This document shows positions 10,626 through 56,980 of a stretch of DNA of 64,000 bases, piece after piece (positions within the stretch are counted from its first letter, which is position 1; each line of letters starts with the position of its first letter). The stretch spans positions 14,786,601 to 14,850,600 of the forward strand of contig OY987237.1 of assembly GCA_963920705.1 (NCBI GenBank), in the 5' to 3' direction. The stretch comes from Odiellus spinosus (Eukaryota; Arthropoda; Arachnida; Opiliones; Phalangiidae). The notes below the pieces were generated by a model, which was given only the letters and a program-made list of their open reading frames with translations, was not told where the DNA came from and ran no database searches. The position numbers were made by a program, and so were the translations under genes.

Positions 10626-11319
10626 TTTTTAAACGTTTTTACTAATATTTCAAACCGTTTTCCACCTCGTTATTTTTTTGAAGTAAATATGACTCCTAAT
10701 AAACTGAACTCTAATATAGGCTCAGTTTCCCAAAACAATGTTTTAAAGTTTATCACTATCCTCTGAGGCTGAAAAATAAGTCTTTCCATTATATTCTAGT
10801 GAAAATTGAATCTCCAATTCGCTAATGAAGTTAGACATAAAAGGACTGGGTATTCAAGTCCATGATGGAAGAGCAAGTTCGAAATATACGCGAAACTTAA
10901 TACAACAGTTTGTAATTTCTCTTGTTAATAGTTCTATAGTTAGAATATCGAATTATAGGGTCCTTTATCTTGTTTGTCAGCCCAATTCAGAAATTAATAA
11001 CTCTGTTTTCCCAATTGTTCGCTCCAAATGCTTAAATTAAAAAAGCAGAAAGAGGATTGTTGAAATGTTTAGTTAAGTTTTGTTTTAAATGATGGGAGAA
11101 ATATTATGAGCCCTAAAGGGTTATTAAATATATAAAATAAAGGTATGATTTCAAGGGACTATGAAATGATTTGGAAGGATATTATCATAAGTTAAACAAC
11201 CTCTAAGTATATAGCCAAGTTTGAATGGGGACTAAACGGCCATGAATGTTCTAATCGGTAGAAATCCGCCCACTACCAATCAAAATACTCTTCTCTTAGT
11301 ATAAACAATCTAGAATTTC
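10626..11319. other. No gene recognised
   Basis: AT-rich. The 71-codon frame at 10825-11040 has no recognisable domain. Confidence 0.45.
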
Positions 11320-25829: not shown

Positions 25830-26429
25830 TGAATGTCGTAAATGTTTCTTAAATTACCCAGATTTCTTTAGTGAGATTCCGTTCTTCGTTTTCATTATCC
25901 CTTAACACGCATCCCTTATCTTAAATAACAAAAATGGCCCATATTTCCGCTTACATACATAAATTTCTATTGTTAAAAATCAGCTCAAACTAGCGTGTAA
26001 CCATTGATCGAACCAATTCGTAATCGATAGATAAAATCCTCTAAATCCTCTCAAATGTACTAACACCAAAGTTTTGTACGTTATTTGTATTTGCTTTTCC
26101 CTGTACACTATTTTACTCTTTTGCATCTTCGAAAAAGCGAATATTTACTATAAAAACATTACGTTAAATGCGCTCAAAGACCATTTTTATGTTAGAGAAT
26201 TGGGATTTAGAGTTTTGCCAGTTTTTTTCGCGAGGCGTTAGACAGTTAACGGTGAATCCCGCGAGAGAAATGTTAGAAAACGAGGCTATAGCTCGAGCAC
26301 TCTAGAGCCCTTTGATTGAGTGCGTGAGAAAAACTATAGTTCCTACAGGGATTTTCTTTTCAAAGTAGCGGTGACACCATAAACTCAAATTTGTGTTCCT
26401 TATATTTAATAAAATTAATCATAAAAAAA
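25830..26429. other. No gene recognised
   Basis: AT-rich spacer between A4 and the small satellite cluster. Confidence 0.4.
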
Positions 26430-26850
26430 AAATACACCCCCTGTAAAATAAATAATCAAAATTATTTTTTTTACAAGGGGTACCCCTTGTAAAATTTTTG
26501 ATAATTTATTTTACAGGGGGTATATATATATTTTTTTTTACAGGGGGTGTATTTATTTTTTTTACAAGGGGTACCCCTGTAAAATTTTTGATTATTTATT
26601 TTGCAGGCGGTGTATTTATTTTTTTTACAAAAAAAATAAATACACCCCCTGTAAAAAAAAAAAAAAAAAAATACACCCCCTGTAAAAAAAATAAATACAC
26701 CCCCTGTAAAAAAAATAAATACACCCCCTGTAAAAAAAAATAAATACACCCCCTGTAAAAAAAATAAATGCACCCCCTGTAAAAAAAAATACACCCCCTG
26801 TAAAATAAATAATCAAAAATTATTTTTTTTTACAAGGGGTACCCCTTATT
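26430..26850. repeat. Miniature, isolated cluster of the 17-mer satellite with its own strand switches
   Basis: About 420 bp built from the same core as the 38-56 kb satellite (ACAGGGGGTGTAT / ATACACCCCCTGT). It runs in both orientations, with a switch around 26627-26640 and palindromic fusions at ACAAGGGGTACCCCTTGT near 26473-26490 and ACAAGGGGTACCCCTGT near 26564-26580. A spacer AAAATAAATAATCAAAA recurs. The spacers here (AAATAA, A7-A20) differ from those in the big array. Open frames of up to 107 codons are repeat by-products. Confidence 0.9.
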
Positions 26851-33721: not shown

Positions 33722-34291
33722 TTCACCACTAGAATATTGGGTAATTGAATGCCTATATTTATTTGTACCAACCTACTTTGAATATTAAAAAGAGGGTGAA
33801 ATTAAAAATTAAGGGGCTCTGAATTAAGAATCAATTTTAAAATATTTCAATTTTTCAATATTTAAATAATTGAAAGACCTCCAACCAATCAATCAGAAGA
33901 CGAGATAACTTTGGCTCTGGTCCAATAAAATTTAACGTGCCGTCTAAGGTGGGGTGACTTCTGATTGGTTCGAATAAAGAGCTTGCCTCACCGTGTGTCG
34001 CGGAATTTCACCACTAGAATATTGGGTAATTGAATGCCTATATTTATTTGTACCAACCTACTTTGAATATTAAAAAGAGGGTGAAATTAAAAATTAAGGG
34101 GCTCTGAATTAAGAATCAATTTTAAAATATTTCAATTTTTCAATATTTAAATAATTGAAAGACCTCCAACCAATCAATCAGAAGACGAGATAACTTTGGC
34201 TCTGGTCCAATAAAATTTAACGTGCCGTCTAAGGTGGGGTGACTTCTGATTGGTTCGAATAAAGAGCTTGCCTCACCGTGTGTCGCGGAAT
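33722..34291 (+). repeat. Perfect 285-bp tandem duplication inside the predicted intron
   Basis: Copies 33722-34006 and 34007-34291 appear identical over all 285 bases by eye. The unit starts TTCACCACTAGAATATTGGG and ends GTGTGTCGCGGAAT. It contains a short inverted pair, CCAATCAATCAGAAG against CTTCTGATTGG, but no MITE ends. The lack of differences implies a recent duplication or an assembly artefact. The second copy ends 160 bp before the exon 2 acceptor. Confidence 0.9.
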
Positions 34292-34451
34292 TTTTTTTAA
34301 TAATAGATTCAAATCTTGACAAAAAAGTTTTTTAAACAAAAAATAACTTTTCAAATATTTCAATTTAAACAAAAATCATTTAGGCTTTGTAGTTGCGAAT
34401 GAATTTTTTTGAGTATGTTTAGTAATTAATGCTTTTTTGTTTGATTGATAG

Positions 34452-35234: not shown

Positions 35235-35935
35235 TTTTTTACTTTTGGTGTTAAGGTAAATAAAAATCTAAGTTTTGAATTTTAGTTTAGTTAAGATTAG
35301 TTTTTCAGTCCGAAATTAAGGCTGCAATTTTCTTCTTAATGCCTTTCTTAAATTGAAAAAACCGAACGGTGTAAAAATTTCCATATATGACTTTAATACT
35401 ATGAAAAAAAGAAACTAAAAAATGTAAAAAGCCTATTTTTAATTTCAAAATTCGCGAGCTAACCAATTGTTAGGCGCATCGTAATATCATGCCTCTTTTA
35501 GCAAACTGTTCTTTTTTAATCCAAAAAATGTAAATTATAAATTGCAATTTTGGCAAATTCACCAAATCAAACAGTAAATTAATATTCCATTTTAATTCAC
35601 CGAGTAAATTAATTTAGACCGCTAATCGTACGTTAACAAGGTATAGAATACTCGATTCATGATACCTGAAGAAAAATAAATAAAATAAAATAAAGGTGAT
35701 ACTGTGATATAATTTGAACGATACTGGAATATTTCTTCAAGTGAAACAAATTAAGTCACCCAGTTTAAATTCTTATAGAATAGCCTCACATATCATGATC
35801 CCTATGACATTGTCAAAATGTGTTTGTTACATAATTGTGTAACAAATATTGAATTAAATAAAAAAATAATATTAAAACTGACGAGTTTCCTCATTATTTT
35901 AAAGATAAGGATAAGTTTATTTTTGTGTAGTTTTA

Positions 35936-36403
35936 CTTTCCAAGCGCATTTTATTTTCAAAGCGCCTTTTATTATTCCAGCACGATTTATTTTCCAACCG
36001 CGTTTTATTTTCCAACCGCGTTTTATTTTCCAACCGCGTTTTATTTTCCAACCGCGTTTTATTTTCCAACCGCGTTTTATTTTCCAACCGCGTTTTATTT
36101 TCCAACCGCGTTTTATTTTCCAACCGCGTTTTATTTTCCAACCGCGTTCTATTTTCCAACCGCGTTTTATTTTCCAACCGCGTTTTATTTTCCAACTGCG
36201 TTTTATTTTCCAAGCGCATTTATTTTCCAAGCGCGTTTTATTTTCCTAGCGCGTTTTAATTTTATAGCGTATTAAATTTTTATAGCGCGTTTTATTTTTG
36301 TAGCGCGTTTTATTTATATAGCCCGTTTTATTTTTATAGAACGATTTATTTTCCAAGCGCGTTTTATTTTCAAGCGCGTTTTACTTTCGAGCGCGTTTTA
36401 TTT
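35936..36403. repeat. Satellite segment 1: 18-bp units with CCAACCGCG
   Basis: About a dozen nearly perfect 18-bp units, CCAACCGCGTTTTATTTT, occupy 35990-36190, with decayed flanking units (CCAAGCGCG, TATAGCGCG) on both sides. Because 18 is a multiple of 3, the frames encode hexapeptide repeats (for example minus-strand ENKTRL); these 100-143-codon frames are by-products. Confidence 0.92.
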
Positions 36404-36623
36404 TCCAAGGGCGTTTTATTTTCAAAGGGCGTTTTATTTTCAAAGGGCGTTTTATTTTCAAAGGGCGTTTTATTTTCAAAGGGCGTTTTATTTTCAAAGG
36501 GCGTTTTATTTTCAAAGGGCGTTTTATTTTCAAAGGGCGTTTTATTTTCAAAGGGCGTTTTATTTTCAAAGGGCGTTTTATTTTCAAAGGGCGTTTTATT
36601 TTCAAAGGGCGTTTTATTTTCAA
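36404..36623. repeat. Satellite segment 2: 18-bp units with GGGCG
   Basis: About 12 uniform units, GGGCGTTTTATTTTCAAA. They share the GCGTTTTATTTTC scaffold with segment 1 but have AAAGG for CAACC. The minus-strand frames reading ENKTPF repeats are not genes. Confidence 0.92.
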
Positions 36624-38150
36624 AAAAGGGGTGGTTTATTTTCAAAAAAGGGGTGGTTTATTTTCAAAAAAGGGGTGGTTTATTTTCAAAGGGCGTTTTA
36701 TTTTCAAAGGGCGTTTTATTTTCAAAAAAGGGTGGTTTATTTTCAAAAAAGGGTGGTTTATTTTAAAAAGGGCGTATTATTTTCAAAAAAGGGGCGTATT
36801 ATTTTCAAAAAAGGGGCGTTTTATTTTCAAAAAAGGGGGGTTTTATTTTCAAAAAAGGGGGGTTTTATTTTCAAAAAAGGGGGTTTTATTTTCAAAAAAG
36901 GGTCGTTTTATTTTCAAAAAAGGGTCGTTTTATTTTCAAAAAAGGGTCGTTTTATTTTCAAAAAAGGGGCGTTTTATTTTCAAAAAGGGGCGTTTTATTT
37001 TCAAAAAAGGGGCGTTTTATTTTCAAAAAAGGGTCGTTTTATTTTCAAAAAAGGGTCGTTTTATTTTCAAAAAAGGGTCGTTTTATTTTCAAAAAAGGGT
37101 CGTTTTATTTTCAAAAAAGGGGCGTTTTATTTTCAAAAAGGGGCGTTTTATTTTCAAAAAGGGGCGTTTTATTTTCAAAAAGGGGCGTTTTATTTTCAAA
37201 AAGGGGGGTTTTATTTTCAAAAAGGGGGGTTTTATTTTCAAAAAAGGGTCGTTTTATTTTCAAAAAAGGGTCGTTTTATTTTCAAAAAAGGGTCGTTTTA
37301 TTTTCAAAAAAGGGTCGTTTTATTTTCAAAAAAGGGTCGTTTTATTTTCAAAAAAGGGGCGTTTTATTTTCAAAAAAGGGGCGTTTTATTTTCAAAAAAG
37401 GGGCGTTTTATTTTCAAAAAAGGGGCGTTTTATTTTCAAAAAAGGGGCGTTTTATTTTCCAAAAAGGGGGGTTTTATTTTCAAAAAAGGGGGGTTTTATT
37501 TTTAAAAAAGGGTCGTTTTATTTTCAAAAAAGGGGCGTTTTATTTTCAAAAAAGGGGCGTTTTATTTTCAAAAAAGGGGTGTTTTATTTTCATAAAAGGG
37601 GTGTTTTATTTTCAAAAAAGGAGTGTTTTATTTTCAAAAAAGGAGTGTTTTATTTTCAAGAAAGGGGTGTTTTATTATCAAAAAAGGGGTGTTTTATTTT
37701 CAAAAAAGGGGTGTTTTATTTTCAAAAAAGGGGTGTTTATTTTCAAAAAAGGGGAGTTTTATTTTCAAAAAAGGTGGTATTTTATTTTCAAAAAAGGGGT
37801 GTTTTATTTTCAAAAAAGGGGTGTTTTATTTTCAAAAAAGGGGTGTTTTATTTTCATAAAAGGGGTGTTTTATTTTCAAAAAAGGAGTGTTTTATTTTCA
37901 AAAAAGGAGTGTTTTCTTTTCAAGAAAGGGGTGTTTTATTATCAAAAAAGGGGTGTTTTATTTTCAAAAAAGGGGTGTTTTATTTTCAAAAAAGGGGTGT
38001 TTATTTTCAAAAAAGGGGAGTTTTATTTTCAAAAAAGGTGGTATTTTATTTTCAAAAAAGGGGTGTTTTATTTTCAAAAAAGGGGTGTTTTATTTTCAAA
38101 AAAGGGGTGTTTTATTTTCAAAAAAGGGGTGTTATTTTCAAAGGGGGTGT
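36624..38150. repeat. Satellite segment 3: 21-22-bp units TTTTATTTTC-A5-6-G3-5-(T/C)G
   Basis: About 70 units keep TTTTATTTTC followed by five or six A and a G-run ending TCG, GCG, GGG or GTG. The subtype changes along the array from GGGTCG and GGGGCG to GGGGTG. A 264-bp block (12 units) is duplicated in tandem at about 37.60-37.86 and 37.86-38.13 kb, with the same rare variants (TTATCA, AAGAAAGG, GGTGGTA). A 543-codon open frame runs through it, with FIFKKG-type repeats; it is a by-product of unit composition. Confidence 0.92.
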
Positions 38151-41100
38151 TATTTTAGAGGGGGTGTTATTTTCAAAGGGGTGTTATTTTCAAAGGGGGG
38201 GTTATTTTCACAGGGGGTGTATTTTTACAGGGGGTGTATTTTTACAGGGGATGTATTTTTAATTTATTTTTTACAGGTGGTGTATTTTTACAGGGGGTGT
38301 ATTTTTACAGGGGATGTATTTTTAATTTATTTTTTACAGGTGGTGTATTTTTACAGGGGGTGTATTTTTAATTTATTTTTTTACAGGGGGTGTATTTTTA
38401 ATTTATTTTTTTACAGGGGGTGTATTTTTAATTTATTTTTTTACAGGGGGGTGTATTTTTAATTAATTATTTTTACAGGGGGTGTATTTTTACAGGGGGT
38501 GTTTTTTACAGGGGGTGTTTTTTACAGGGGGTGTATTTTTAAAGGGGGTGTATTTTTACAGGGGGTGAATTTTTACAGGGGGTTTATTTTTACAGGGGGT
38601 GTATTTTAACAGGGGGTGTAATTTTAATTTATTTTTTTTACAGGGGGTGTATTTTTACAGGGTGTGTATTTTTAATTAATTTTTTTACAGGGGGTGTATT
38701 TTTACAGGGGGTGTATTTTTACAAGGGGTGTATTTTTACAGGGGGTGTATTTTTACAGGGGGTGTATTTTTAATTTATTTTTTTTTTACAGGGGGTGTAT
38801 TTTTACAGGGGGTGTATTTTTAATTTTTTTTACAGGGGGTGTATTTTTACAGGGGGTGTATTTTTACAGGGGGTGTTTTTTTACAGGGGGTGTTTTTTTA
38901 AAGGGGTGTATTTTTACAGGGGGTGTATTTTTACAGGGGGTGTATTTTTACAGGGTGTGTATTTTTAATTAATTTTTTTTTACAGGGGGTGAATTTTTGC
39001 AAGGGGTGTATTTTTACAGGGGGTGTATTTTTAAAGGGGGCGTATTTTTAATTTATTTTTTTTACAGGGGGTGTATTTTTACAGGGGGTGTATTTTTAAT
39101 TTATTTTTTTTACAGGGGGGTATTTTTACAGGGTGTGTATTTTTACAGGGTGTGTATTTTTAATTAATTTTTTTTACTGGGGGTGTATTTTTACAATGGG
39201 TGTATTTTTACAGGGGGTGTATTTTTACAGGGGGTGTATTTTTACAGGGGGTGTTTTTTTACAGGGGTGTTTTTTTACAGGGGGTGTATTTTTACAGGGG
39301 GTGTATTTTTACAGGGTGTGTATTTTTAATTAATTTTTTTTACAGGGGGTGTATTTTTACAGGGGATGTATTTTTACAAGGGGTGTATTTTTACAGGGGG
39401 TGTATTTTTACAGGGGGTGTATTTTTAATTTATTTTTTTACAGGGGGTGTATTTTTAATTTATTTTTTTACAGGGGTGTATTTTTACAGTTTGTGTATTT
39501 TTACAGGGGGTGTATTTTTACAGGGGGTGTTTTTTACAGGGGGTGTTTTTTTACAGGGGTGTATTTTTACAGGGGGTGTATTTTTCCAAGGGGTGTATTT
39601 TTCCAAGGGGTGTATTTTTACAGGGGGTGTATTTTTACAGGGGGTGTATTTTTAATTTATTTTTTTTTACAGGGGGTGTATTTTTACAGGGGGTGTATTT
39701 TTAATTTATTTTTTTTACAGGGGGTGTTTTTTTAATTTAATTTTTTACAGGGGGTGTATTTTTACAGGGGGTGTATTTTTACAAGGGGTGTATTTTTACA
39801 GGGGGTGTATTTTTACAGGGGGTGTATTTTTACAAGGGGTGTATTTTTACAGGGGGTGTATTTTTACAGGGGGTGTATTTTTAATTTATTTTTTTTTACA
39901 GGGGGTGTATTTTTACAGGGGGTGTATTTTTAATTTATTTTTTTACAGGGGGTGTATTTTTACAGTGGATGTATTTTTACAGGGGGTGTATTTTTACAGG
40001 GGGTGTATTTTTACAAGGGGTGTATTTTTACAGGGGGTGTATTTTTACAGGGGGTGTATTTTTAATTTTTTTTTTACAGGGGGTGTATTTTTACAGGGCG
40101 TGTATTTTTAATTTTTTTTTTTACAGGGGGTGTATTTTTACAGGGGGTGTATTTTTAATTTATTTTTTTACAGGGGGTGTATTTTTACAGGGGTGTATTT
40201 TTACAAGGGGTGTATTTTTACAGGGGGTGTATTTTTACAGGGGGAGTATTTTTAATTTTTTTTTTTACAGGGGGTGTATTTTTACAGGGGGTGTATTTTT
40301 ACAGGGGGTGTATTTTTAATTTATTTTTTTACAGGGGGTGTATTTTTACAGGGGTGTTTTTTTAAAGGCGGTGTTTTTTTACAGGGGTGTATTTTTACAG
40401 GGGGTGTATTTTTACAGGGTGTGTATTTTTAATTAATTTTTTTTACAGGGGTGTATTTTTACAGGGGGTGTATTTTTACAAGGGGTGTATTTTTACAGGG
40501 GGTGTATTTTTACAGGGGGTGCATTTTTAATTTTTTTTTTTAAAGGGGTGTATTTTTACAGGGGGTGTATTTTTAATTTATTTTTTTTACAGGGGGTGTA
40601 TTTTTACAGGGGGTGTATTTTTAATTTATTTTTTTACAGGGGGTGTATTTTTACAGGAGTGTATTTTTACAAGGGGTGTATTTTTACAGGGGGTGTATTT
40701 TTAATTTTTTTTTACAGGGGGTGTATTTTTACAGGGGATGTATTTTTAATTTATTTTTTTTACAGGGGGTGTATTTTTACAGGGGGTGTATTTTTAATTT
40801 ATTTTTTTACAGGGGGTGTATCTTTACAGGTGTGTATTTTTACAAGGGGTGTATTTTTACAGGGGGTGTATTTTTACAGGGGGTGTATTTTTACAAGGGG
40901 TGTATTTTTACAGGGGGTGTATTTTTACAGGGGGTGTATTTTTAATTTATTTTTTTTACAGGGGGTGTATTTTTACAGGGGGTGTATTTTTAATTTATTT
41001 TTTTTACAGGGGGTGTATTTTTACAGGGGGTGTATTTTTACAGGGGGTGTATTTTTAATTTATTTTTTTACAGGGGGTGTATTTTTACAGTGGGTGTATT

Positions 41101-43014
41101 TTTACAGGGGGTGTTTTTTTAAAGGCGGTGTTTTTTTACAGGGGTGTATTTTTACAGGGGGTGTATTTTTACAGGGTGTGTATTTTTAATTAATTTTTTT
41201 TACAGGGGTGTATTTTTACAGGGGATGTATTTTTACAAGGGGTGTAATTTTACAGGGGGTGTATTTTTACAGGGGGTGCATTTTTAATTTATTTTTTTAA
41301 AGGGGTGTATTTTTACAGGGGGTGTATTTTTAATTTATTTTTTTTACAGGGGGTGTATTTTTACAGGGGGTGTATTTTTAATTTATTTTTTTACAGGGGG
41401 TGTATTTTTACAGGGGTGTATTTTTACAAGGGGTGTATTTTTACAGGTGGTGTATTTTTACAGGGGGAGTATTTTTACAAGGGGTGTATTTTTACAGGGG
41501 GTGTATTTTTACAAGGGGTGTATTTTTACAGGGGGTGTATTTTTACAGGGGGTGTATTTTTAATTTATTTTTTTTACAGGGGTGTATTTTTACAGGGGGT
41601 GTATTTTTAATTTATTTTATTTACAGGGGGTGTATTTTTACAGGGGGTGTATTTTTACAGGGGGTGTATTTTTAATTTATTTTTTTACAGGGGGTGTATT
41701 TTTACAGTGGGTGTATTTTTACAGGGGGTGTTTTTTTAAAGGCAGTGTTTTTTTACAGGGGTGTATTTTTACAGGGGGTGTATTTTTACAGGGGGTGTAT
41801 TTTTACAGGATGTGTATTTTTAATTAATTTTTTTTACAGGGGTGTATTTTTACAGGGGGTGTATTTTTACAAGGGGTGTATTTTTACAGGGGGTGTATTT
41901 TTACAGGGGGTGCATTTTTAATTTATTTTTTTTAAAGGGGTGTATTTTTACAGGGGGTGTATTTTTAATTTATTTTTTTTACAGGGGGGTATTTTTACAG
42001 GGTGTGTATTTTTGCAGGGTGTGTATTTTTAATTAATTTTTTTTACAGGGGGTGTATTTTTACAATGGGTGTATTTTTACAGGGGGTGTATTTTTACAGG
42101 GGGTGTATTTTTACAGGGAGTGTATTTTTAATTAATTTTTTTTACAGGGGGTGTATTTTTACAGGGGGTGTATTTTTACAAGGGGTGTATTTTTACAGGG
42201 GGTGTATTTTTAATTTATTTTTTTTACAGGGGGTGTATTTTTACAGGGGGTGTATTTTTAATTTTTTTTTTTTTACAGGGGGTGTATTTTTACAGGGGGT
42301 GTATTTTTAATTTATTTTTTTACAGGGGGTGTATTTTTACAGTGGGTGTATTTTTACACGGGGTGTATTTTTACAGGGGGTATTTTTTACAGGGGGTGTT
42401 TTTTTACAGGGGTGTTTTTTACAGAGGAAGAATTTTTACAGGGGGAGTATTTTTACAGGGGGTGTATTTTTACAGGGTGTGTATTTTTAATTTATTTTTT
42501 TTACAGGGGGTGTTTTTTTACAGGGGTTGTATTTAGACAAGGGGTGTATTTTTACAGGGGGTGTATTTTTAATTTATTTTTTTTACAGAGGGGATATTTT
42601 TACAGGGTGTGTAGTTTTACAGGGTGTGTATTTTTAATTAATTTTTTTACAGGGGGTGTATTGTTACAATGGGTGTATTTTTACAGGGGGTGTATTTTTA
42701 CAGTGGGTGTATTTTTACAGGGGGTGTATTTTTACAGGGGGTGTTTTTTTTACAGGGGTGTATTTTTACAGGGGGTGTATTTTTACAGGGGGTGTATTTT
42801 TACAGGGTGTGTATTTTTAATTAATTTTTTTACAGGGGGTGTATTTTTACAGGGGGTGTATTTTTACAGGGGGTGTATTTTTACAGGGGGTGTATTTTTA
42901 ATTTATTTTTTTTTACAGGGGGTGTATTTTTACAGGGGGTGTATTTTTATTTTTTTTTTTTTACAGGGGTAGTATTTTTACAGGGGGTGTATTTTTAATT
43001 TATTTTTTTACAGG
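38151..43014 (+). repeat. Satellite segment 4, left arm: 17-mer with the G-rich strand on plus
   Basis: Core unit GGGGGTGTATTTTTACA (17 bp). Longer spacers (TGTATTTTTAATTTATTTTTTTACA type, or with TTAATTAA) occur every few units. The first units, 38150-38215, are transitional (GTTATTTTCAAAGGGGGT, then TTTTCACAGG). The 17-bp period rotates through three open frames, giving repeated FTGGVFLQG-like peptides of up to about 230 codons; none is treated as coding. Confidence 0.95.
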
Positions 43015-43039
43015 AGATATTACACCCCCTGTAAAAAAA
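43003..43039. other. Strand-switch point of the satellite palindrome
   Basis: TTTTTTTACAGG (43003-43014) and CCTGTAAAAAAA (43028-43039) are perfect inverses around 13 bases (AGATATTACACCC). To the left all G-runs are on plus, to the right all are on minus. Confidence 0.92.
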
Positions 43040-46000
43040 CACCCCCTGTAAAAATACACCCCCTGTAAAAAAACACCCCCTGTAAAAATACACCCACTGT
43101 AAAAATACACCCCCTGTAAAAAAATAAATTAAAAATACACCCCCCTGTAAAAATTACACTCCAGTAAAAAAAATTAATTAAAAATACACACCCTGTAAAA
43201 ATACACCCCTGTAAAAATACACCCCCTGTAAAAAAAATAAATTAAAAATACACCCCCTGTAAAAATACACACCCTGCAAAAATACACCCCCTGTAAAAAA
43301 ATTAATTAAAAATACCCCCCCTGTAAAAATACACCCCCTGTAAAAATACACCCCCTGTAAAAAAACACCCCCTGTAAAAAAACACCCCCTGTAAAAATAC
43401 ACCCACTGTAAAAATACACCCCCTGTAAAAAAAATAAATTAAAAATACACCCTCTGTAAAAAACACCCCCTGTAAAAATACACCCCCTGTAAAAATACAC
43501 CCCCTGTAAAAAAATTAATTAAAAATACACACCCTGTAAAAATACACCCCTGTAAAAAACACCCCCTGTAAAAATACACCCCCTGTAAAAAATAAATTAA
43601 AAATACACCCCCTGTAAAAATACACTCCCTGTAAAAAAAACACCCCCTGTAAAAAAACACCCCCTGTAAAAAAACACCCCCTGTAAAAAACACCCCCTGT
43701 AAAAATACACCCACTGTAAAAATACACCCCCTGTAAAAAAAATAAATTAAAAACACACCCCTGCAAAAATACACCCCCTGTAAAAAAATTAATTAAAAAT
43801 ACACACCCTGTAAAAATACACCCCCTGTAAAAAAAATAAATTAAAGATACACCCCCTGCAAAAATACACCCTCTGTAAAAATACACCCCCTGTAAAAATA
43901 CACCCCCTGTAAAAATACACCCCCTGTAAAAATACACCCCCTGTAAAAATACACCCCCTGTAAAAATAAACCCCCTGTAAAAATACACCCCCTGTAAAAA
44001 TACACCCCCTGTAAAAAAACACCCCCTGTAAAAATACACCCCCTGTAAAAATAAACCCCCTGTAAAAATACACCCCCTGTAAAAATACACCCCCTGTAAA
44101 AAAACACCCCCTGTAAAAAAACACCCCTGTAAAAATACACCCCCTGTAAAAATACACCCCCTGTAAAAATACACCCCTGTAAAAATAAACCCCTTGTAAA
44201 AATACACCCCCTGTAAAAATACACCCCCTGTAAAAATACACCCCCTGTAAAAATACACCCCCTGTAAAAATACACCCCTTGTAAAAATACACCCCCTGTA
44301 AAAATACACCCCCTGTAAAAAAATTGATTAAAAATTCACCACTTGTAAAAAAACACCCCCTGTAAAAATACACCCCCTGTAAAAAAATTGATTAAAAATA
44401 CACCCCCTCTAAAAAAACACCCCTGTAAAAATACACCCCCTGTAAAAATACACCCACTGTAAAAATACACCCCCTGTAAAAATACACCCCCTGTAAAAAA
44501 TTTGATTAAAAATACACCCCCTGCAAAAATACATCCTCTGTAAAAATACACCCCCTGTAAAAATACACACCCTGTAAAAATACACCCCCTGTAAAAATAC
44601 ACCCCCTGTAAAAATAAACCCCCTGTAAAAATACACCCCCTGTAAAAAAAACACCCCCTGTAAAAAAACACCCCTGTAAAAATACACCCCCTCTAAAAAT
44701 ACACCCACTGCAAAAATACACCCCCTGTAAAAAAATAAATTAAAAATACACCCCCTGTAAAAATACACCCCCTGTAAAAATACACCCCTTGTAAAAATAC
44801 ACCCCCTGTAAAAATACACCCCCTGTAAAAAAATTGATTAAAAATTCACCCCCTGTAAAAAACACCCCCTGTAAAAATACACCCCCTGTAAAAAAATTGA
44901 TTAAAAATACACCCCCTCTAAAAAAACACCCCTGTAAAAATACACCCCCTGTAAAAATACACCCACTGTAAAAATACACCCCCTGTAAAAAAATAAATTA
45001 AAAATACACCCCCTGCAAAAATACACCCTCAGTAAAAATACACCCCCTGTAAAAATACACCCCCTGTAAAAAATTGATTAAAAATACACCCCCTGTAAAA
45101 AACACCCCTGTAAAAATACACCCCCTGTAAAAATACACCCACTGTAAAAATATACCCCCTGTAAAAAAAATAAATTAAAAATACACCCCCTGCAAAAATA
45201 CACCCTCTGTAAAAATACACCCCCTGTAAAAATACACCCCCTGTAAAAATACACCCCCGGTAAAAATACACCCCCTGTAAAAATACACCCCCTGTAAAAA
45301 TACACCCACTGTAAAAATACACCCCCTGTAAAAAAATAAATTTAAAATACACCCCCTGTAAAAATACACCCCCTGTAAAAAAATTAATTAAAAATACACC
45401 CCCTGTAAAAAAATTAATTAAAAATACACCCCCTGTAAAAAAACACCCCTGTAAAAATACACCCCCTGTAAAAATACACCCCCTGTAAAAATACACACCC
45501 TCTAAAAATACACCCCCTGTAAAAAAATAAATTAAATACACCCCTGCAAAAATACACCCTCTGTAAAAATACACCCCCTGTAAAAATACACCCCCTGTAA
45601 AAATACACCCCTGTAAAAATACACCCCCTGTAAAAAAATTAATTAAAAATACACCCCCTGTAAAAAAACACCCCTGTAAAAATACACCCCCTGTAAAAAT
45701 ACACCCACTGTAAAAATACACCCCCTGTAAAAAAATAAATTAAAAATACACCCCCTGTAAAAAAAATTAATTAAAAATACACCCCCTGTAAAAAAACACC
45801 ACTGTAAAAATACACCCCTGTAAAAAAATAAATTAAAAATACACCCCCTGTAAAAATACACCCCCTGTAAAAATACACCCCCTGTAAAAATACACCCCCT
45901 GTAAAAATACACACCCTGTAAAAATACACCCCTGTAAAAAACACCCCCTGTAAAAATACACCCCCTGTAAAAAATAAATTAAAAATACACCCCCTGTAAA

Positions 46001-49000
46001 AATACACCCCCTGTAAAAAAACACCCCCTGTAAAAAAACACCCCCTGTAAAAATACACCCACTGTAAAAATACACCCACTGTAAAAATACACCCCCTGTA
46101 AAAAAAATAAATTAAAAACACACCCCTGCAAAAATACACCCCCTGTAAAAAAATTAATTAAAAATACACACCCTGTAAAAATACACCCCCTGTAAAAAAA
46201 ATAAATTAAAGATACACCCCCTGCAAAAATACACCCTCTGTAAAAATACACCCCCTGTAAAAATACACCCCCTGTAAAAATACACCCCCTGTAAAAATAC
46301 ACCCCCTGTAAAAATACACCCCCTGTAAAAATAAACCCCCTGTAAAAATACACCCCCTGTAAAAATACACCCCCTGTAAAAAAACACCCCCTGTAAAAAT
46401 ACACCCCCTGTAAAAATAAACCCCCTGTAAAAATACACCCCCTGTAAAAATACACCCCCTGTAAAAAAACACCCCCTGTAAAAAAACACCCCTGTAAAAA
46501 TACACCCCCTGTAAAAATACACCCCCTGTAAAAATACACCCAATGTAAAAATACACCCAATGTAAAAATACACCCCCTGTAAAAATACACCCCCTGTAAA
46601 AATAAACCCCTTGTAAAAATACACCCCCTGTAAAAATACACCCCCTGTAAAAATACACCCCCTGTAAAAATACACCCCCTGTAAAAATACACCCCTTGTA
46701 AAAATACACCCCCTGTAAAAAAATTGATTAAAAATTCACCCCCTGTAAAAAAACACCCCCTGTAAAAATACACCCCCTGTAAAAATACACCCCCTGTAAA
46801 AAAATTGATTAAAAATACACCCCCTCTAAAAAAACACCCCTGTAAAAATACACCCCCTGTAAAAATACACACCCTGTAAAAATACACCCCTGTAAAAAAC
46901 ACCCCCTGTAAAAATACACCCCCTGTAAAAAATAAATTAAAAATACACCCCCTGTAAAAATACACCCCCTGTAAAAAAACACCCCCTGTAAAAAAACACC
47001 CCCTGTAAAAATACACCCACTGTAAAAATACACCCACTGTAAAAATACACCCCCTGTAAAAAAAATAAATTAAAAACACACCCCTGCAAAAATACACCCC
47101 CTGTAAAAAAATTAATTAAAAATACACACCCTGTAAAAATACACCCCCTGTAAAAAAAATAAATTAAAGATACACCCCCTGCAAAAATACACCCTCTGTA
47201 AAAATACACCCCCTGTAAAAATACACCCCCTGTAAAAATACACCCCCTGTAAAAATACACCCCCTGTAAAAATACACCCCCTGTAAAAATAAACCCCCTG
47301 TAAAAATACACCCCCTGTAAAAATACACCCCCTGTAAAAAAACACCCCCTGTAAAAATACACCCCCTGTAAAAATAAACCCCCTGTAAAAATACACCCCC
47401 TGTAAAAATACACCCCCTGTAAAAAAACACCCCCTGTAAAAAAACACCCCTGTAAAAATACACCCCCTGTAAAAATACACCCCCTGTAAAAATACACCCA
47501 ATGTAAAAATACACCCAATGTAAAAATACACCCCCTGTAAAAATACACCCCCTGTAAAAATAAACCCCTTGTAAAAATTCACCCCCTGTAAAAATACACC
47601 CCCTGTAAAAATACACCCCCTGTAAAAATACACCCCCTGTAAAAATACACCCCTTGTAAAAATACACCCCCTGTAAAAAAATTGATTAAAAATTCACCCC
47701 CTGTAAAAAAACACCCCCTGTAAAAATACACCCCCTGTAAAAATACACCCCCTGTAAAAAAATTTATTAAAAATACACCCCCTCTAAAAAAACACCCCTG
47801 TAAAAATACACCCCCTGTAAAAATACACCCACTGTAAAAATACACCCACTGTAAAAATACACCCCCTGTAAAAATACACCCCCTGTAAAAATACAAACCC
47901 TGTAAAAAAATTGATTAAAAATTCACCCCCTGTAAAAAAACACCCCCTGTAAAAATACACCCCCTGTAAAAAAAATAAATTAAAAATACACCCCCTGCAA
48001 AAATACATCCTCTGTAAAAATACACCCCCTGTAAAAATACACCCCCTGTAAAAATACACCCCCTGTAAAAATACACCCCCTGTAAAAATACACCCCCTGT
48101 AAAAATAAACCCCCTGTAAAAATACACCCCCTGTAAAAAAAACACCCCCTGTAAAAAAACACCCCTGTAAAAATACACCCCCTGTAAAAATACACCCCCT
48201 GTAAAAATAAACCCCCTGTAAAAATACACCCCCTGTAAAAATAAACCCCCTGTAAAAATACACCCCCTGTAAAAAAACACCCCCTGTAAAAAAACACCCC
48301 TGTAAAAATACACCCCCTCTAAAAATACACCCACTGTAAAAATACACCCCCTGTAAAAAAATAAATTAAAAATACACCCCCTGTAAAAATACACCCCCTG
48401 TAAAAATACACCCCTTGTAAAAATACACCCCCTGTAAAAATACACCCCCTGTAAAAAAATTGATTAAAAATTCACCCCCTGTAAAAAACACCCCCTGTAA
48501 AAATACACCCCCTGTAAAAAAATTGATTAAAAATACACCCCCTCTAAAAAAACACCCCTGTAAAAATACACCCCCTGTAAAAATACACCCACTGTAAAAA
48601 TACACCCCCTGTAAAAAAATAAATTAAAAATACACCCCCTGCAAAAATACACCCTCAGTAAAAATACACCCCCTGTAAAAATACACCCCCTGTAAAAAAT
48701 TGATTAAAAATACACCCCCTGTAAAAAACACCCCTGTAAAAATACACCCCCTGTAAAAATACACCCACTGTAAAAATATACCCCCTGTAAAAAAAATAAA
48801 TTAAAAATACACCCCCTGCAAAAATACACCCTCTGTAAAAATACACCCCCTGTAAAAATACACCCCCTGTAAAAATACACCCCCGGTAAAAATACACCCC
48901 CTGTAAAAATACACCCCCTGTAAAAATACACCCACTGTAAAAATACACCCCCTGTAAAAAAATAAATTTAAAATACACCCCCTGTAAAAATACACCCCCT

Positions 49001-52000
49001 GTAAAAAAATTAATTAAAAATACACCCCCTGTAAAAAAATTAATTAAAAATACACCCCCTGTAAAAAAACACCCCTGTAAAAATACACCCCCTGTAAAAA
49101 TACACCCCCTGTAAAAATACACACCCTCTAAAAATACACCCCCTGTAAAAAAATAAATTAAATACACCCCTGCAAAAATACACCCTCTGTAAAAATACAC
49201 CCCCTGTAAAAATACACCCCCTGTAAAAATACACCCCTGTAAAAATACACCCCCTGTAAAAAAATTAATTAAAAATACACCCCCTGTAAAAAAACACCCC
49301 TGTAAAAATACACCCCCTGTAAAAATACACCCACTGTAAAAATACACCCCCTGTAAAAAAATAAATTAAAAATACACCCCCTGTAAAAAAAATTAATTAA
49401 AAATACACCCCCTGTAAAAAAACACCACTGTAAAAATACACCCCCTGTAAAAATACACCCACTGTAAAAATATACCCCCTGTAAAAAAAATAAATTAAAA
49501 ATACACCCCCTGCAAAAATACACCCTCTGTAAAAATACACCCCCTGTAAAAATACACCCCCTGTAAAAATACACCCCCGGTAAAAATACACCCCCTGTAA
49601 AAATACACCCCCTGTAAAAATACACCCACTGTAAAAATACACCCCCTGTAAAAAAATAAATTTAAAATACACCCCCTGTAAAAATACACCCCCTGTAAAA
49701 AAATTAATTAAAAATACACCCCCTGTAAAAAAATTAATTAAAAATACACCCCCTGTAAAAAAACACCCCTGTAAAAATACACCCCCTGTAAAAATACACC
49801 CCCTGTAAAAATACACACCGTCTAAAAATACACCCCCTGTAAAAAAATAAATTAAATACACCCCTGCAAAAATACACCCTCTGTAAAAATACACCCCCTG
49901 TAAAAATACACCCCCTGTAAAAATACACCCCCTGTAAAAAAATTAATTAAAATACACCCCCTGTAAAAAAACACCCCTGTAAAAATACACCCCCTGTAAA
50001 AATACACCCACTGTAAAAATACACCCCCTGTAAAAAAATAAATTAAAAATACACCCCCTGTAAAAAAAATTAATTAAAAATACACCCCCTGTAAAAAAAC
50101 ACCACTGTAAAAATACACCCCTGTAAAAAAATAAATTAAAAATACACCCCCTGTAAAAATACACCCCCTGTAAAAATACACCCCCTGTAAAAATACACCC
50201 CCTGTAAAAATACACCCCCTGTAAAAATACACACCCTGTAAAAATACACCCCTGTAAAAAACACCCCCTGTAAAAATACACCCCCTGTAAAAAATAAATT
50301 AAAAATACACCCCCTGTAAAAATAAACCCCCTGTAAAAAAACACCCCCTGTAAAAAAACACCCCCTGTAAAAATACACCCACTGTAAAAATACACCCACT
50401 GTAAAAATACACCCCCTGTAAAAAAAGTAAATTAAAAACACACCCCTGCAAAAATACACCCCCTGTAAAAAAATTAATTAAAAATACACACCCTGTAAAA
50501 ATACACCCCCTGTAAAAAAAATAAATTAAAGATACACCCCCTGCAAAAATACACCCTCTGTAAAAATACACCCCCTGTAAAAATACACCCCCTGTAAAAA
50601 TACACCCCCTGTAAAAATACACCCCCTGTAAAAATACACCCCCTGTAAAAATAAACCCCCTGTAAAAATACACCCCCTGTAAAAATACACCCCCTGTAAA
50701 AAAATAAATTAAAAATACACCCCCTGTAAAAATACACCCCCTGTAAAAATACACCCCTTGTAAAAATACACCCCCTGTAAAAATACACCCCCTGTAAAAA
50801 AATTGATTAAAAATTCACCCCCTGTAAAAAACACCCCCTGTAAAAATACACCCCCTGTAAAAAAATTGATTAAAAATACACCCCCTCTAAAAAAACACCC
50901 CTGTAAAAATACACCCCCTGTAAAAATACACCCACTGTAAAAATACACCCCCTGTAAAAAAATAAATTAAAAATACACCCCCTGCAAAAATACACCCTCA
51001 GTAAAAATACACCCCCTGTAAAAATACACCCCCTGTAAAAAATTGATTAAAAATACACCCCCTGTAAAAAACACCCCTGTAAAAATACACCCCCTGTAAA
51101 AATACACCCACTGTAAAAATATACCCCCTGTAAAAAAAAAAAATTAAAAATACACCCCCTGCAAAAATACACCCTCTGTAAAAATACACCCCCTGTAAAA
51201 ATACACCCCCTGTAAAAATACACCCCCGGTAAAAATACACCCCCTGTAAAAATACACCCCCTGTAAAAATACACCCACTGTAAAAATACACCCCCTGTAA
51301 AAAAATAAATTTAAAATACACCCCCTGTAAAAATACACCCCCTGTAAAAAAATTAATTAAAAATACACCCCCTGTAAAAAAATTAATTAAAAATACACCC
51401 CCTGTAAAAAAATTAATTAAAAATACACCCCCTGTAAAAAAACACCCCTGTAAAAATACACCCCCTGTAAAAATACACCCCCTGTAAAAATACACACCCT
51501 CTAAAAATACACCCCCTGTAAAAAAATAAATTAAATACACCCCTGCAAAAATACACCCTCTGTAAAAATACACCCCCTGTAAAAATACACCCCCTGTAAA
51601 AATACACCCCTGTAAAAATACACCCCCTGTAAAAAAATTAATTAAAAATACACCCCCTGTAAAAAAACACACCCTGTAAAAATACACCCCTGTAAAAAAC
51701 ACCCCCTGTAAAAATACACCCCCTGTAAAAAATAAATTAAAAATACACCCCCTGTAAAAATACACCCCCTGTAAAAAAACACCCCCTGTAAAAAAACACC
51801 CCCTGTAAAAATACACCCCCTGTAAAAATACACCCACTGTAAAAATACACCCCCTGTAAAAAAATAAATTAAAAATACACCCCCTGTAAAAAAAATAAAT
51901 TAAAAATACACCCCCTGTAAAAAAACACCACTGTAAAAATACACCCCTGTAAAAAAATAAATTAAAAATACACCCCCTGTAAAAATACACCCCCTGTAAA

Positions 52001-55000
52001 AATACACCCCCTGTAAAAATACACCCCCTGTAAAAATACACACCCTGTAAAAATACACCCCTGTAAAAAACACCCCCTGTAAAAATACACCCCCTGTAAA
52101 AAATAAATTAAAAATACACCCCCTGTAAAAATACACCCCCTGTAAAAAAACACCCCCTGTAAAAAAACACCCCCTGTAAAAATACACCCCCTGTAAAAAA
52201 ACACCCCCTGTAAAAAAACAACCCCTGTAAAAATACACCCACTGTAAAAATACACCCACTGTAAAAATACACCCCCTGTAAAAAAAATAAATTAAAAACA
52301 CACCCCTGCAAAAATACACCCCCTGTAAAAAAATTAATTAAAAATACACACCCTGTAAAAATACACCCCCTGTAAAAAAAATAAATTAAAGATACACCCC
52401 CTGCAAAAATACACCCTCTGTAAAAATACACCCCCTGTAAAAATACACCCCCTGTAAAAATACACCCCCTGTAAAAATACACCCCCTGTAAAAATACACC
52501 CCCTGTAAAAATAAACCCCCTGTAAAAATACACCCCCTGTAAAAATACACCCCCTGTAAAAAAACACCCCCTGTAAAAATACACCCCCTGTAAAAATAAA
52601 CCCCCTGTAAAAATACACCCCCTGTAAAAATACACCCCCTGTAAAAAAACACCCCCTGTAAAAAAACACCCCTGTAAAAATACACCCCCTGTAAAAATAC
52701 ACCCCCTGTAAAAATACACCCAATGTAAAAATACACCCAATGTAAAAATACACCCCCTGTAAAAATACACCCCCTGTAAAAATAAACCCCTTGTAAAAAT
52801 ACACCCCCTGTAAAAATACACCCCCTGTAAAAATACACCCCCTGTAAAAATACACCCCCTGTAAAAATACACCCCTTGTAAAAATACACCCCCTGTAAAA
52901 AAATTGATTAAAAATTCACCCCCTGTAAAAAAACACCCCCTGTAAAAATACACCCCCTGTAAAAATACACCCCCTGTAAAAAAATTGATTAAAAATACAC
53001 CCCCTCTAAAAAAACACCCCTGTAAAAATACACCCCCTGTAAAAATACACCCACTGTAAAAATACACCCACTGTAAAAATACACCCCCTGTAAAAATACA
53101 AACCCTGTAAAAAAATTGATTAAAAATTCACCCCCTGTAAAAAAACACCCCCTGTAAAAATACACCCCCTGTAAAAAAAATAAATTAAAAATACACCCCC
53201 TGCAAAAATACATCCTCTGTAAAAATACACCCCCTGTAAAAATACACCCCCTGTAAAAATACACCCCCTGTAAAAATACACCCCCTGTAAAAATAAACCC
53301 CCTGTAAAAATACACCCCCTGTAAAAAAAACACCCCCTGTAAAAAAACACCCCTGTAAAAATACACCCCCTCTAAAAATACACCCACTGTAAAAATACAC
53401 CCCCTGTAAAAAAATAAATTAAAAATACACCCCCTGTAAAAATACACCCCCTGTAAAAATACACCCCCTGTAAAAATACACCCCTTGTAAAAATACACCC
53501 CCTGTAAAAATACACCCCCTGTAAAAAAATTGATTAAAAATTCACCCCCTGTAAAAAAACACCCCCTGTAAAAATACACCCCCTGTAAAAATACACCCCC
53601 TGTAAAAATACACCCCCTGTAAAAAAAATAAATTAAAAATACACCCCCTGTAAAAATACACCCCCTGTAAAAAAAATAAATTAAAAATACACCCCCTGTA
53701 AAAATACACCTCCTGTAAAAAAATTAATTAAAAATACACCCCCTGTAAAAAACACCCCTGTAAAAATACACCCCCTGTAAAAATACACCCCCTGTAAAAA
53801 TACACCCCCTGTAAAAAAACACCCCCTGTAAAAAAACATCCCCTGTAAAAATACACCCCCTGTAAAAATACACCCCCTGTAAAAATACACCCACTGTAAA
53901 AATACTTCCCCTGTAAAAAAAATAAATTAAAAATACACCCCCTGTAAAAATACACCCCCTGTAAAAAAATTAATTAAAAATACACCCCCTGTAAAAAAAC
54001 ACCCCTGTAAAAATACACCCCCTGTAAAAAAATAAATTAAAAATACACCCCCTGTAAAAATACACCCCCTGTAAAAATACACCCCCTGTAAAAATACACC
54101 CCCTGTAAAAATACACCCCCTGTAAAAATACACCCCCTGTAAAAATACACCCCCAGTAAAAATACACCCCCTGTAAAAATACACCCCCTGTAAAAATACA
54201 CCCCCTGTAAAAATACACCCCCTGTAAAAATACACCCCCTGTAAAAATACACCACTTGTAAAAATACACCCCCTGTAAAAAAAACACCCCCTGTAAAAAA
54301 ACACCCCCTGTAAAAAAACACCCCTTGTAAAAATACACCCCCTGTAAAAATACACCCCCTGTAAAAATACACCCCCTGTAAAAATACACCCCCTGTAAAA
54401 ATACACCCCCTGTAAAAATACACCCCCTGTAAAAATACACCCCCTGTAAAAATACACCCCCTGTAAAAATACACCCCCTGTAAAAATACACCCCCTGTAA
54501 AAATACACCACTTGTAAAAATACACCCCCTGTAAAAATACACCCCCTTTAAAAATACACCCCCTGTAAAAATACACCCCCTGTAAAAAAAAAAAAATTAA
54601 AATTACACCCCCTGTAAAAATACACCCCCTGTAAAAAAATAATTAAAAACACACCCCCTGTAAAAATACACCCCCTGTAAAAAAATAAATTAAAAATACA
54701 CCCCCTGTAAAAATACACCCCATGTAAAAATACACCCCCTGTAAAAATACACCCCCTGTAAAAATACACCCCCTGTAAAAATACACCCCCTGTAAAAATA
54801 AACCCCCTGTAAAAATACACCCCCTGTAAAAATACACCCCCTGTAAAAAAATAAATTAAAAATACACCCCCTGTAAAAATACACCCCCTGTAAAAATACA
54901 CCCACTGTAAAAATACACCCCCTGTAAAAATACACCCCCTGTAAAAATACACCCCCCCGTAAAAATAAACCCCCTGTAAAAATACACCCCCTGTAAAAAA

Positions 55001-56170
55001 CACCCCCTGTAAAAAAACACCCCTGTAAAAATACACCCACTGTAAAAATACACCCCCTGTAAAAAAATAAATTAAAAATACACCCCCTGTAAAAAAAATT
55101 AATTAAAAATACACCCCCTGTAAAAAAACACCCCTGTAAAAATACACCCCCTGTAAAAATACACCCACTGTAAAAATACACCCACTGTAAAAATACACCC
55201 CCTGAAAAAAAAAAATTAAAAATGCACCCCCTGTAAAAATACACCCCCTGTAAAAATACACCCCCTGTAAAAATACACCCCCTGTAAAAATACACCCCTT
55301 GTAAAAATACACCCCCTGTAAAAATACACCCCCGGTAAAAAAATAAATTAAAAATACACCCCCTGTAAAAATACACCTCCTGTAAAAAAATTAATTAAAA
55401 ATACACCCCCTGTAAAAAAACACCCCTGTAAAAATACACCCCCCGTAAAAATACACCCACTGTAAAAATACACCCCCTGTAAAAAAATAAATTAAAAATA
55501 CACACCCTCTAAAAATACACCCCCTGTAAAAAAATAAATTAAAAATACACCCCCCTCTAAAAATACACACCCTCTAAAAATACACCCCCTGTAAAAAAAA
55601 TAAATTTAAAATACACCCCCTGTAAAAATACACCCTCTGTAAAAATACACCCCCTGGAAAAATACACCCCCTGTAAAAATAACCCCTTGTAAAAATACAC
55701 CCCCTGTAAAAAAAACAACCCCTGTAAAAAAACACCCCTGTAAAAATACACCCCCTGTAAAAATACACCCACTGTAAAAATACACCCCTGTAAAAATACA
55801 CCCACTGTAAAAATACACCCCCTGTAAAAAAATTAATTAAAAACACCCCTGTAAAAATACACCCCCTGTAAAAATACACACACTGTAAAAATACACCCCC
55901 TGTAAAAAAATAAATTAAAAATACACCCCCTGTAAAATACACACCCTGTAAAAATACACCCCCTGTAAAAAAGTTAATTAAAAATACACCCCCTGTAAAA
56001 ATACACCCCCTGTAAAAAAAATAAATTAAAAATACACCCCCTGCAAAAATACACCCCCTGTAAAAAATAAATTAAAAATACATCCCCAGTAAAAATACAC
56101 CCCCTGCAAAAATACACCCCCTGTAAAAAATAAATTAAAAATACATCCCCAGTAAAAATACACCCCCTGT
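43028..56170 (-). repeat. Satellite segment 4, right arm: 17-mer in reverse complement, with higher-order repeats
   Basis: About 13.1 kb of ATACACCCCCTGTAAAA-type units. Blocks recur as higher-order copies: roughly 44.74-45.80 kb equals 48.37-49.43 kb (offset 3,626 bp); a block at 46.15-46.68 kb recurs at 47.11-47.63 (offset 958) and at 52.33-52.86; a block at 48.80-49.23 kb recurs 694 bp later. Diagnostic rare units (ACACCCCCGGTAAAA, ACACCCAATGTAAAA, TTGATTAAAAATTCACC) tag the copies. Minus-strand frames of up to 372 codons are by-products. Confidence 0.95.
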
Positions 56171-56214
56171 AAAAATAACACCCCCTTTGAAAATAACACC
56201 CCCTTTGAAAATAA
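56171..56214 (-). repeat. Transitional units ending the right arm
   Basis: Two units reading AACACCCCCTTTGAAAAT, the reverse complement of the transitional units at 38150-38190 that begin the left arm. They make the two arms symmetric at their outer ends. Confidence 0.8.
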
Positions 56215-56980
56215 TTGAGATTGAGAAAAATTGAGATTGAGAAAAATTGAGATTGAGAAAAATTGAGATTGAGAAAAATTGAGATTGAGAAAAATTGAGA
56301 TTGAGAAAAATTGAGATTGAGAAAAATTGAGATTGAGAAAAATTGAGATTGAGAAAAATTGAGATTGAGAAAAATTGAGATTGAGAAAAATTGAGATTGA
56401 GAAAAATTGAGATTGAGAAAAATTGAGATTGAGAAAAATTGAGATTGAGAAAAATTGAGATTGAGAAAAATTGAGATTGAGAAAAATTGAGATTGAGAAA
56501 AATTGAGATTGAGAAAAATTGAGATTGAGAAAAATTGAGATTGAGAAAAATTGAGATTGAGAAAAATTGAGATTGAGAAAAATTGAGATTGAGAAAAATT
56601 GAGATTGAGAAAAATTGAGATTGAGAAAAATTGAGATTGAGAAAAATTGAGATTGAGAAAAATTGAGATTGAGAAAAATTGAGATTGAGAAAAATTGAGA
56701 TTGAGAAAAATTGAGATTGAGAAAAATTGAGATTGAGAAAAATTGAGATTGAGAAAAATTGAGATTGAGAAAAATTGAGATTGAGAAAAATTGAGATTGA
56801 GAAAAATTGAGATTGAGAAAAATTGAGATTGAGAAAAATTGAGATTGAGAAAAATTGAGATTGAGAAAAATTGAGAAAAATTGAGATTGAGAAAAATTGA
56901 GATTGAGAAAAATTGAGATTGAGAAAAATTGAGATTGAGAAAAATTGAGAAAAATTGAGATTGAGAAAAATTGAGAAAAG
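56215..56980 (+). repeat. 16-bp purine-rich tandem array TTGAGATTGAGAAAAA
   Basis: 41 consecutive 16-bp units (56215-56870) with no difference seen, then a 10-bp short unit TTGAGAAAAA, four full units, another short unit, one full unit and a final short unit. Short units lack GATTGA. Uniformity indicates recent expansion. It directly abuts the right arm of the palindrome. Confidence 0.95.

Follow-up and report, generated by a model that had tools for sequence, protein, structure and literature searches.

Introduction

Satellite arrays made of two opposite subarrays are known from Tribolium madens, where TmSat1 and TmSat2 form macro-dyad arrays with lengths between a few and some tens of kilobases (PMC13081366). 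In the portion of that report available here, unit lengths are 225 and 704 bp, the unit at the inversion site is degenerate, the inversion-site subunits are 98–99% alike, the boundaries carry distinct conserved transition zones and the subunits contain short inverted repeats; 5764 TmSat2 arrays were analysed, in multi-megabase regions (PMC13081366). The same portion of this 2026 report gives macro-dyad symmetries of satellite arrays as documented only in Tribolium, and in PMC13427858 the term macro-dyad is confined to the reference list. Here, a G-rich array with a comparable arrangement is described in Odiellus spinosus (contig OY987237.1), as read from the assembled sequence of one 64-kb window alone (the window being the whole stretch of DNA analysed). 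It is built of 17-bp units, changes strand once, and probably arose by an inverted duplication of its left boundary.

This array resembles the Tribolium madens macro-dyads, as the available text describes them, in that opposite kilobase-scale subarrays of one satellite are joined (4.9 kb plus, 13.2 kb minus), and in that a degenerate unit lies at the switch, a single case here. It differs from them in being one array of 17-bp G-rich units with one switch and no second long array in the window. In Tribolium a second satellite alternates with the array through the conserved transition zones; here each edge has the same transition units, but the neighbouring arrays differ, a related 22-mer array lying on the left only and an unrelated 16-mer array on the right. 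Further, instead of a multi-megabase (peri)centromeric block, the tandem DNA here spans 35.93–56.98 kb of the window. Because that multi-megabase context is lacking within the window, the 17-bp array is considered similar to the Tribolium macro-dyads in architecture only, and is not classed as a member.

Alpha-satellite monomers are 171 bp long, and in layered alpha satellite the older units are found at the array edges, with layers that border the centromere on either side and extend over large distances. At the Odiellus locus, too, unit types appear to be ordered by age along the chromosome, although here the order is one-sided, covers ∼2.2 kb, and runs through unit lengths of 18, 22, 18 and 17 bp. 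Inversions within the active alpha-satellite arrays of primates are mentioned in the available part of PMC13041921; strand switches inside tandem arrays are thus common to both, but the primate arrays are centromeric and of megabase size, and no graded unit series like the present one is described in that part. The locus bears on two open questions, the origin of strand switches in satellite arrays and a possible function of the resulting symmetry. It is compact, with comparable edges, a kept unit series and one switch; from this one sequence, a succession of unit change, inverted duplication and arm expansion could be proposed, which comparison with relatives could then put to the test.

An 18-kb G-rich array with one strand switch

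The 17-bp tandem repeat TACAGGGGGTGTATTTT occupies positions 38126–56214 and changes strand once, at ∼43.02 kb. Tandem Repeats Finder detected ∼300 copies at 38126–42997 and, in reverse complement, ∼807 copies at 43021–56213, and the GC skew flips at 43 kb from about +0.69 to about −0.69, in agreement with the single switch claimed in the first-pass annotation of this DNA. The claim that all G-runs lie on the plus strand for 4.9 kb and then on the minus strand for 13.2 kb was exact: runs of at least three G or C number 230 G and 0 C in the left arm, and 0 G and 675 C in the right. Parsing yielded 234 units in the left arm and 677 in the right, with two main lengths of ∼17 and ∼30 bases, the latter being a longer form with a AATTTATTTTTT-like extension. 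With its short unit repeated head to tail many times over, the array is a satellite or minisatellite; this 18-kb G-rich short repeat with one strand flip is real. It lies in an AT-rich window (GC content of 0.30–0.40 in most 1-kb bins). The tandem DNA related to the array, however, extends further left than the 38.15 kb first given, to 35.93 kb. In total this DNA amounts to 18–21 kb, is bounded in the window at 35.93 and 56.98 kb, and has stretches without long tandem arrays on both sides. The features are collected in Table 1.

Table 1. Coordinates of the 17-bp array, its parts and associated tandem repeats (positions within the window)
Feature	Positions	Strand	Description	Basis
Island	26428..26850		17-mer core motif, several strand switches, GGGGTACCCC palindromes; ∼24-bp spacing, 0.4 kb	
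18-bp array	35930..36621	+	GTTTTATTTTCCAACCGC grading via ..AAGCGC to ..CAAAGGGC; oldest-looking end of the series	
22-bp array	36409..38142	+	GTTTTATTTTCAAAAAAGGGGT and GGGGC/GGGTC variants; start overlaps last 18-mers	
Left arm	38126..43014	+	17-bp array, G-runs on plus	Tandem Repeats Finder, G/C-run counts, repeat search
Transitional units	38130..38217	+	Five 17/18-bp units (GTTATTTTCAAAGGGGGT, then ..CACAGGGGG), bridging 22-mer to 17-mer	
Left-edge pair	38237..38362	+	Identical 63-bp higher-order units with GGGGATG marker	
Strand switch	43003..43039		12-bp stem, 13-base spacer, degenerate last left unit	Sequence, predicted fold
Right arm	43021..56213	-	17-bp array, G-runs on minus	Tandem Repeats Finder, G/C-run counts
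Duplication zone	44712..53371	-	Main zone of exact right-arm duplications: 1107, 829, 742, 579 bp and shorter	
Right edge	56035..56214	-	Inverted counterpart of left edge: pair of 63-bp units bearing the GGGGATG marker, followed by two transitional units	
16-bp array	56205..56976		TTGAGAAAAATTGAGA, adjoins right edge	

The outer edges of the arms are homologous and inverted

Both arms end in the same transitional unit in inverted orientation, as the first inspection had noted, and the likeness extends to a pair of 63-bp units shared by the two edges. The 63-bp copies are identical within each edge and differ between edges at 3 of 63 bases. A 30-mer taken from this unit, picked after the alignment had been seen, has four exact copies in the window: two on the plus strand (38247 and 38310) and two on the minus strand (56058 and 56121). 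The outer 300-base chunk of the left arm found its best match in the outer chunk of the right arm (rank 1 of 86; score 185, mean 143.4, standard deviation (SD) 12.5). With the transitional units left out, alignment of the left 63-bp units to the right edge gave a score of 143 (mean 102.9, SD 7.7, over 648 overlapping right-arm positions), the next distinct place in that arm scoring 134. In the reverse comparison, the right edge scored 113 against the left edge, the best value in the left arm (mean 78.6, SD 10.2, 469 positions), and 98 at best against the rest of its own arm (1273 positions). The edges may be read as one shared boundary present in both orientations, with the 63-mers homogenised or doubled separately in each arm. 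The array thus probably originated by inverted duplication of the left boundary within a G-rich minisatellite or satellite array, followed by independent turnover of the two arms.

The array closes a graded series of units

From 35.93 kb onwards the units follow one another as 18-mer, 22-mer, transitional 18-mer and 17-mer, the array closing the series (GTTTTATTTTCCAACCGC, ..AAGCGC, ..CAAAGGGC, GTTTTATTTTCAAAAAAGGGGC/T, GTTATTTTCAAAGGGGGT, GTATTTTTACAGGGGGT). Among 106 parsed units, distance along the DNA correlated with edit distance (rho 0.48), a value reached in 0 of 999 permutations (maximum 0.12); some of the irregular units, at 36128–36395, 37647 and 37889, were joined together or broken up in parsing. 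The transitional unit is five edits away from the 22-mer and three from the 17-mer (as close in 0 of 2000 letter shuffles). The fraction of shuffles as near to the 17-mer was 0.048 for the C form of the 22-mer and 0.015 for ..CAAAGGGC. The 17-mer may represent the younger end of the series. A derivation of the 16-mer array from the 17-mer, or from the precursors of that unit, was also considered, but was unsupported, cyclic edit distances being no better than those of shuffled letters.

The joint at 43.0 kb

At the switch, the stem arms TTTTTTTACAGG (43003–43014) and CCTGTAAAAAAA (43028–43039) are separated by a spacer of 13 bases. The 12-bp stem had been singled out in the first pass and is indeed present, but it follows from the strand switch; since a head-to-head joint of the 17-bp repeat gives such a stem anyway, it does not constitute separate evidence. 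The strong single-strand fold predicted for 42900–43130 (−85.9 kcal/mol, z −15.0) is of the kind that inverted repeats should give. In the final left-arm unit TACAGGAGATAT replaces TACAGGGGGTGTAT, so that a degenerate unit lies at the joint; this is a weak sign, as it is a single case and variant units occur within the arms too. Given the strong predicted fold, formation of a cruciform, or stalling of a replication fork, would be physically plausible at this joint.

Unit order near the centre is not mirrored between the arms, in line with the initial description: for centre-anchored alignments of 300 and 600 bases, 58 and 49 of 60 shuffled unit orders, respectively, were as good. A fold-back read would mirror from the centre; the absence of such a mirror at these lengths therefore argues against a simple read of this kind, as had been proposed. 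At 1, 2 and 4 kb, only 1, 0 and 0 of 60 shuffles were as good. However, nine of ten right-arm blocks, wherever located, beat all 20 shuffles in local alignments to the left arm, and this indicates that the excess at 1–4 kb reflects a general neighbour order. The whole-arm alignment scored 2813, compared with a maximum of 2771 in 40 shuffles.

Exact duplications in the right arm

In the right arm, stretches of 1107 bp (offset 3626), 829 bp (offset 6180), 742 bp (offset 958) and 579 bp (offset 5222) are duplicated exactly and in direct orientation. Exact duplicates of at least 150 bp cover 67.5% of this arm and 0% of the left one. The longest far exceeds the maximum of 199 bp found in 200 unit shuffles, while the longest exact repeat inside the left arm, 126 bp, is within the shuffle range. 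Most duplicates lie at ∼44.8–53.2 kb, with shorter ones at 43.7–44.2 and 54.3–54.9 kb; the innermost 0.6 kb and the outermost 1.2 kb of the arm are free of them. These kilobase duplications look recent. Arm-specific variants exist as well (AATCAATTTTT is found 19 times in the right arm and 0 times in the left), though the right arm is amplified and 2.7 times longer. Jensen-Shannon values between unit spectra were 0.36 and 0.41 for the left arm against two right-arm blocks, and 0.17 between those blocks, a difference that mildly favours separate histories of the arms.

A proposed origin and its alternatives

These features can be arranged in a tentative order of events. The 17-bp unit would have arisen stepwise at one end of an older array, first of 18-bp and then of 22-bp units. 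A single inverted duplication would have placed a second left boundary (the transitional units and the adjoining 63-bp unit) facing the opposite way, generating a head-to-head array. Unequal exchange or replication slippage would later have altered each arm, with the edge pairs homogenised, or the 63-mer doubled, separately in each, and kilobase-scale duplication would subsequently have enlarged the right arm.

Template switching would be the likeliest trigger, at a replication fork that had stalled within the G-rich repeat. Each consensus unit contains a TACA/TGTA dyad around G5 that could offer the short complementarity needed for a template switch; this dyad, and the fact that the motif also flips strand in a small island at 26.4 kb, are the reasons for favouring this mechanism. 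The island (core TACAGGGGGTGTA) has at least four strand switches according to a pattern count that missed the reverse halves of its GGGGTACCCC palindromes, and its predicted fold reaches −117.8 kcal/mol (z −15.3). Switching strand thus seems to be habitual for this motif, although two sites make a small sample. A bolder idea, for now speculative and rather doubtful, is that the 17-mer family is inversion-prone: the TACA-G5-TGTA dyad and the G-runs would make forks switch, arrays would repeatedly become head-to-head palindromes, and the present locus would keep, in order, the whole unit series from progenitor to palindrome.

Several observations weigh against an inverted duplication followed by separate turnover. 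Outer-anchored alignments that include the 63-mers were matched by 0 to 2 of 60 shuffles at all seven lengths, but without the 63-mers 37, 22, 8, 3 and 0 of 60 shuffles were as good at 0.5, 1, 2, 3 and 4.5 kb, and the excess at 4.5 kb may be explained by neighbour order lost in shuffling. Of 16 left-arm chunks, only two had the chunk at the mirrored distance from the outer edge as their top-ranking match, and the longest exact match between arms, 142 bp, is inside the shuffle range (maximum 177 in 200 shuffles). Unit spectra of half-arms differ within arms by 0.13–0.30, values that approach the 0.35–0.43 between arms. In the series, neither the first 18-mer nor the T form of the 22-mer is by itself significantly near the 17-mer (shuffle fractions 0.19 and 0.067); it is the transitional units that tie the series to the 17-mer. 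Finally, the 22-mer array has no counterpart beyond the right edge, and no mirrored homology is seen in the flanks adjoining the edges.

A mirrored interior was rejected, as past the edge neither chunk ranking nor exact matches nor shuffle-tested alignments gave clear collinear homology. Among the longest matches between the arms, three do lie at similar distances from the two outer edges (2136/2120, 2790/2504 and 2875/2738), but they were discounted, since 142 bp is in the shuffle range and other matches of nearly equal length are placed otherwise. A larger inverted duplication that includes the flanks was also rejected: there is no mirrored flank next to the edges, and the flank-to-flank matches have left-hand partners at 7.5–31.8 kb. 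Of the old inverted duplication with separately evolving arms put forward in the first-pass annotation, the homologous inverted edges and the differing duplication histories of the arms are thus in favour, while a mirrored interior order was not found.

An interior that is not clearly mirrored would also be expected from a simple inversion with breakpoints in this array and in a second array of the same family with a like edge, which would leave two distinct arrays facing each other. The different satellite in the right flank, and the presence of the 17-mer motif at 26.4 kb in the same window, would fit such an event. Turnover within the arms, however, likewise accounts for the lack of a mirrored interior order, and the second array would need to carry the same 63-bp boundary pair, the marker of which is found in the window only at the two edges described; a simple inversion thus seems unlikely. 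Misassembly, in which two arrays from different places or alleles were joined in the wrong orientation within a repeat that could not be spanned, is quite improbable: 17-bp units repeated over 13 kb, with exact copies reaching 1107 bp, are hard to assemble, but the joint contains a degenerate unit and has no fold-back mirror, and homologous inverted edges are not expected from a random misjoin unless both arrays had that edge.

A selected structural role, in which macro-dyad symmetry and the potential to form G-quadruplexes would have been the reason for keeping the locus as a centromere, a fork barrier or a heterochromatin seed, is very improbable: head-to-head arrays with degenerate inversion-site units do occur in putative Tribolium pericentromeres (available portion of PMC13081366), G-quadruplexes are reported as common at Drosophila melanogaster centromeres (available portion of PMC9070824) and G-run clusters (loops of up to 12 bases) number 12 in the left arm and 90 in the right, as raw counts without a chance control, but this is a lone 18-kb array with both ends inside the window and unequal arms (4.9 versus 13.2 kb), and its stem and G-runs follow from the sequence and the strand switch alone. 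The centromeric or heterochromatic role initially guessed at found no support, as the 18–21 kb of tandem DNA ends inside the window and nothing found there points to a centromere. A selected function appears to be neither needed to explain the array nor supported; the array is an unusually clear case of repetitive DNA of a known kind, with no sign of a specialised role. Inverted duplication of the left boundary with later independent turnover is retained as the probable origin.

Other contents of the window

Open reading frames (ORFs) listed inside the array were rejected as coding, being read-through of the repeat. Apart from those in the tandem arrays and in the 26.4-kb island, there are 10 stop-to-stop ORFs of at least 100 amino acids. 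A Pfam scan of six of them gave no family above the cut-off and one sub-threshold FYVE match (E 0.013); the other four overlap copies of an element resembling a miniature inverted-repeat transposable element (MITE), as does one of the six scanned, so that five of the 10 ORFs overlap this element. The satellites, the MITE-like copies and the fact that long ORFs are missing from non-repetitive DNA point to a eukaryotic genome as the most likely source. Searches of the 64-kb window returned 0 Rfam matches at gathering scores and 0 tRNAs under a bacterial search setting. Exact satellite patterns had no match in viral or genome contig collections, which are viral or prokaryotic by description and hence little informative, and the MITE-like pattern had none in the viral contig collection. 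In the literature, the only match to the satellite strings was in an alfalfa protein study, taken as chance, and strings of the window's other repeats had no match.

The MITE-like element is ∼340 bp long and present in at least eight copies, in both orientations, near positions 1609, 4336, 19859, 25483, 27443, 29167, 31319 and 32661; most have the complementary ends CAGAAGCCGATGAAACC...GGTTTCATCGGCTTCTG. Dispersed repeats at ∼57.1–57.5 kb and 61.6–61.9 kb are ∼70–84% alike to places at 7.5–31.8 kb. A 285-bp unit is tandemly duplicated at 33722–34293 (100% matches), and a 23-bp tandem array, CCTTTTGGTCGAAGCTGTCCAGC, occupies 9936–10630 with 30 copies (98% matches) and several frames open on both strands.

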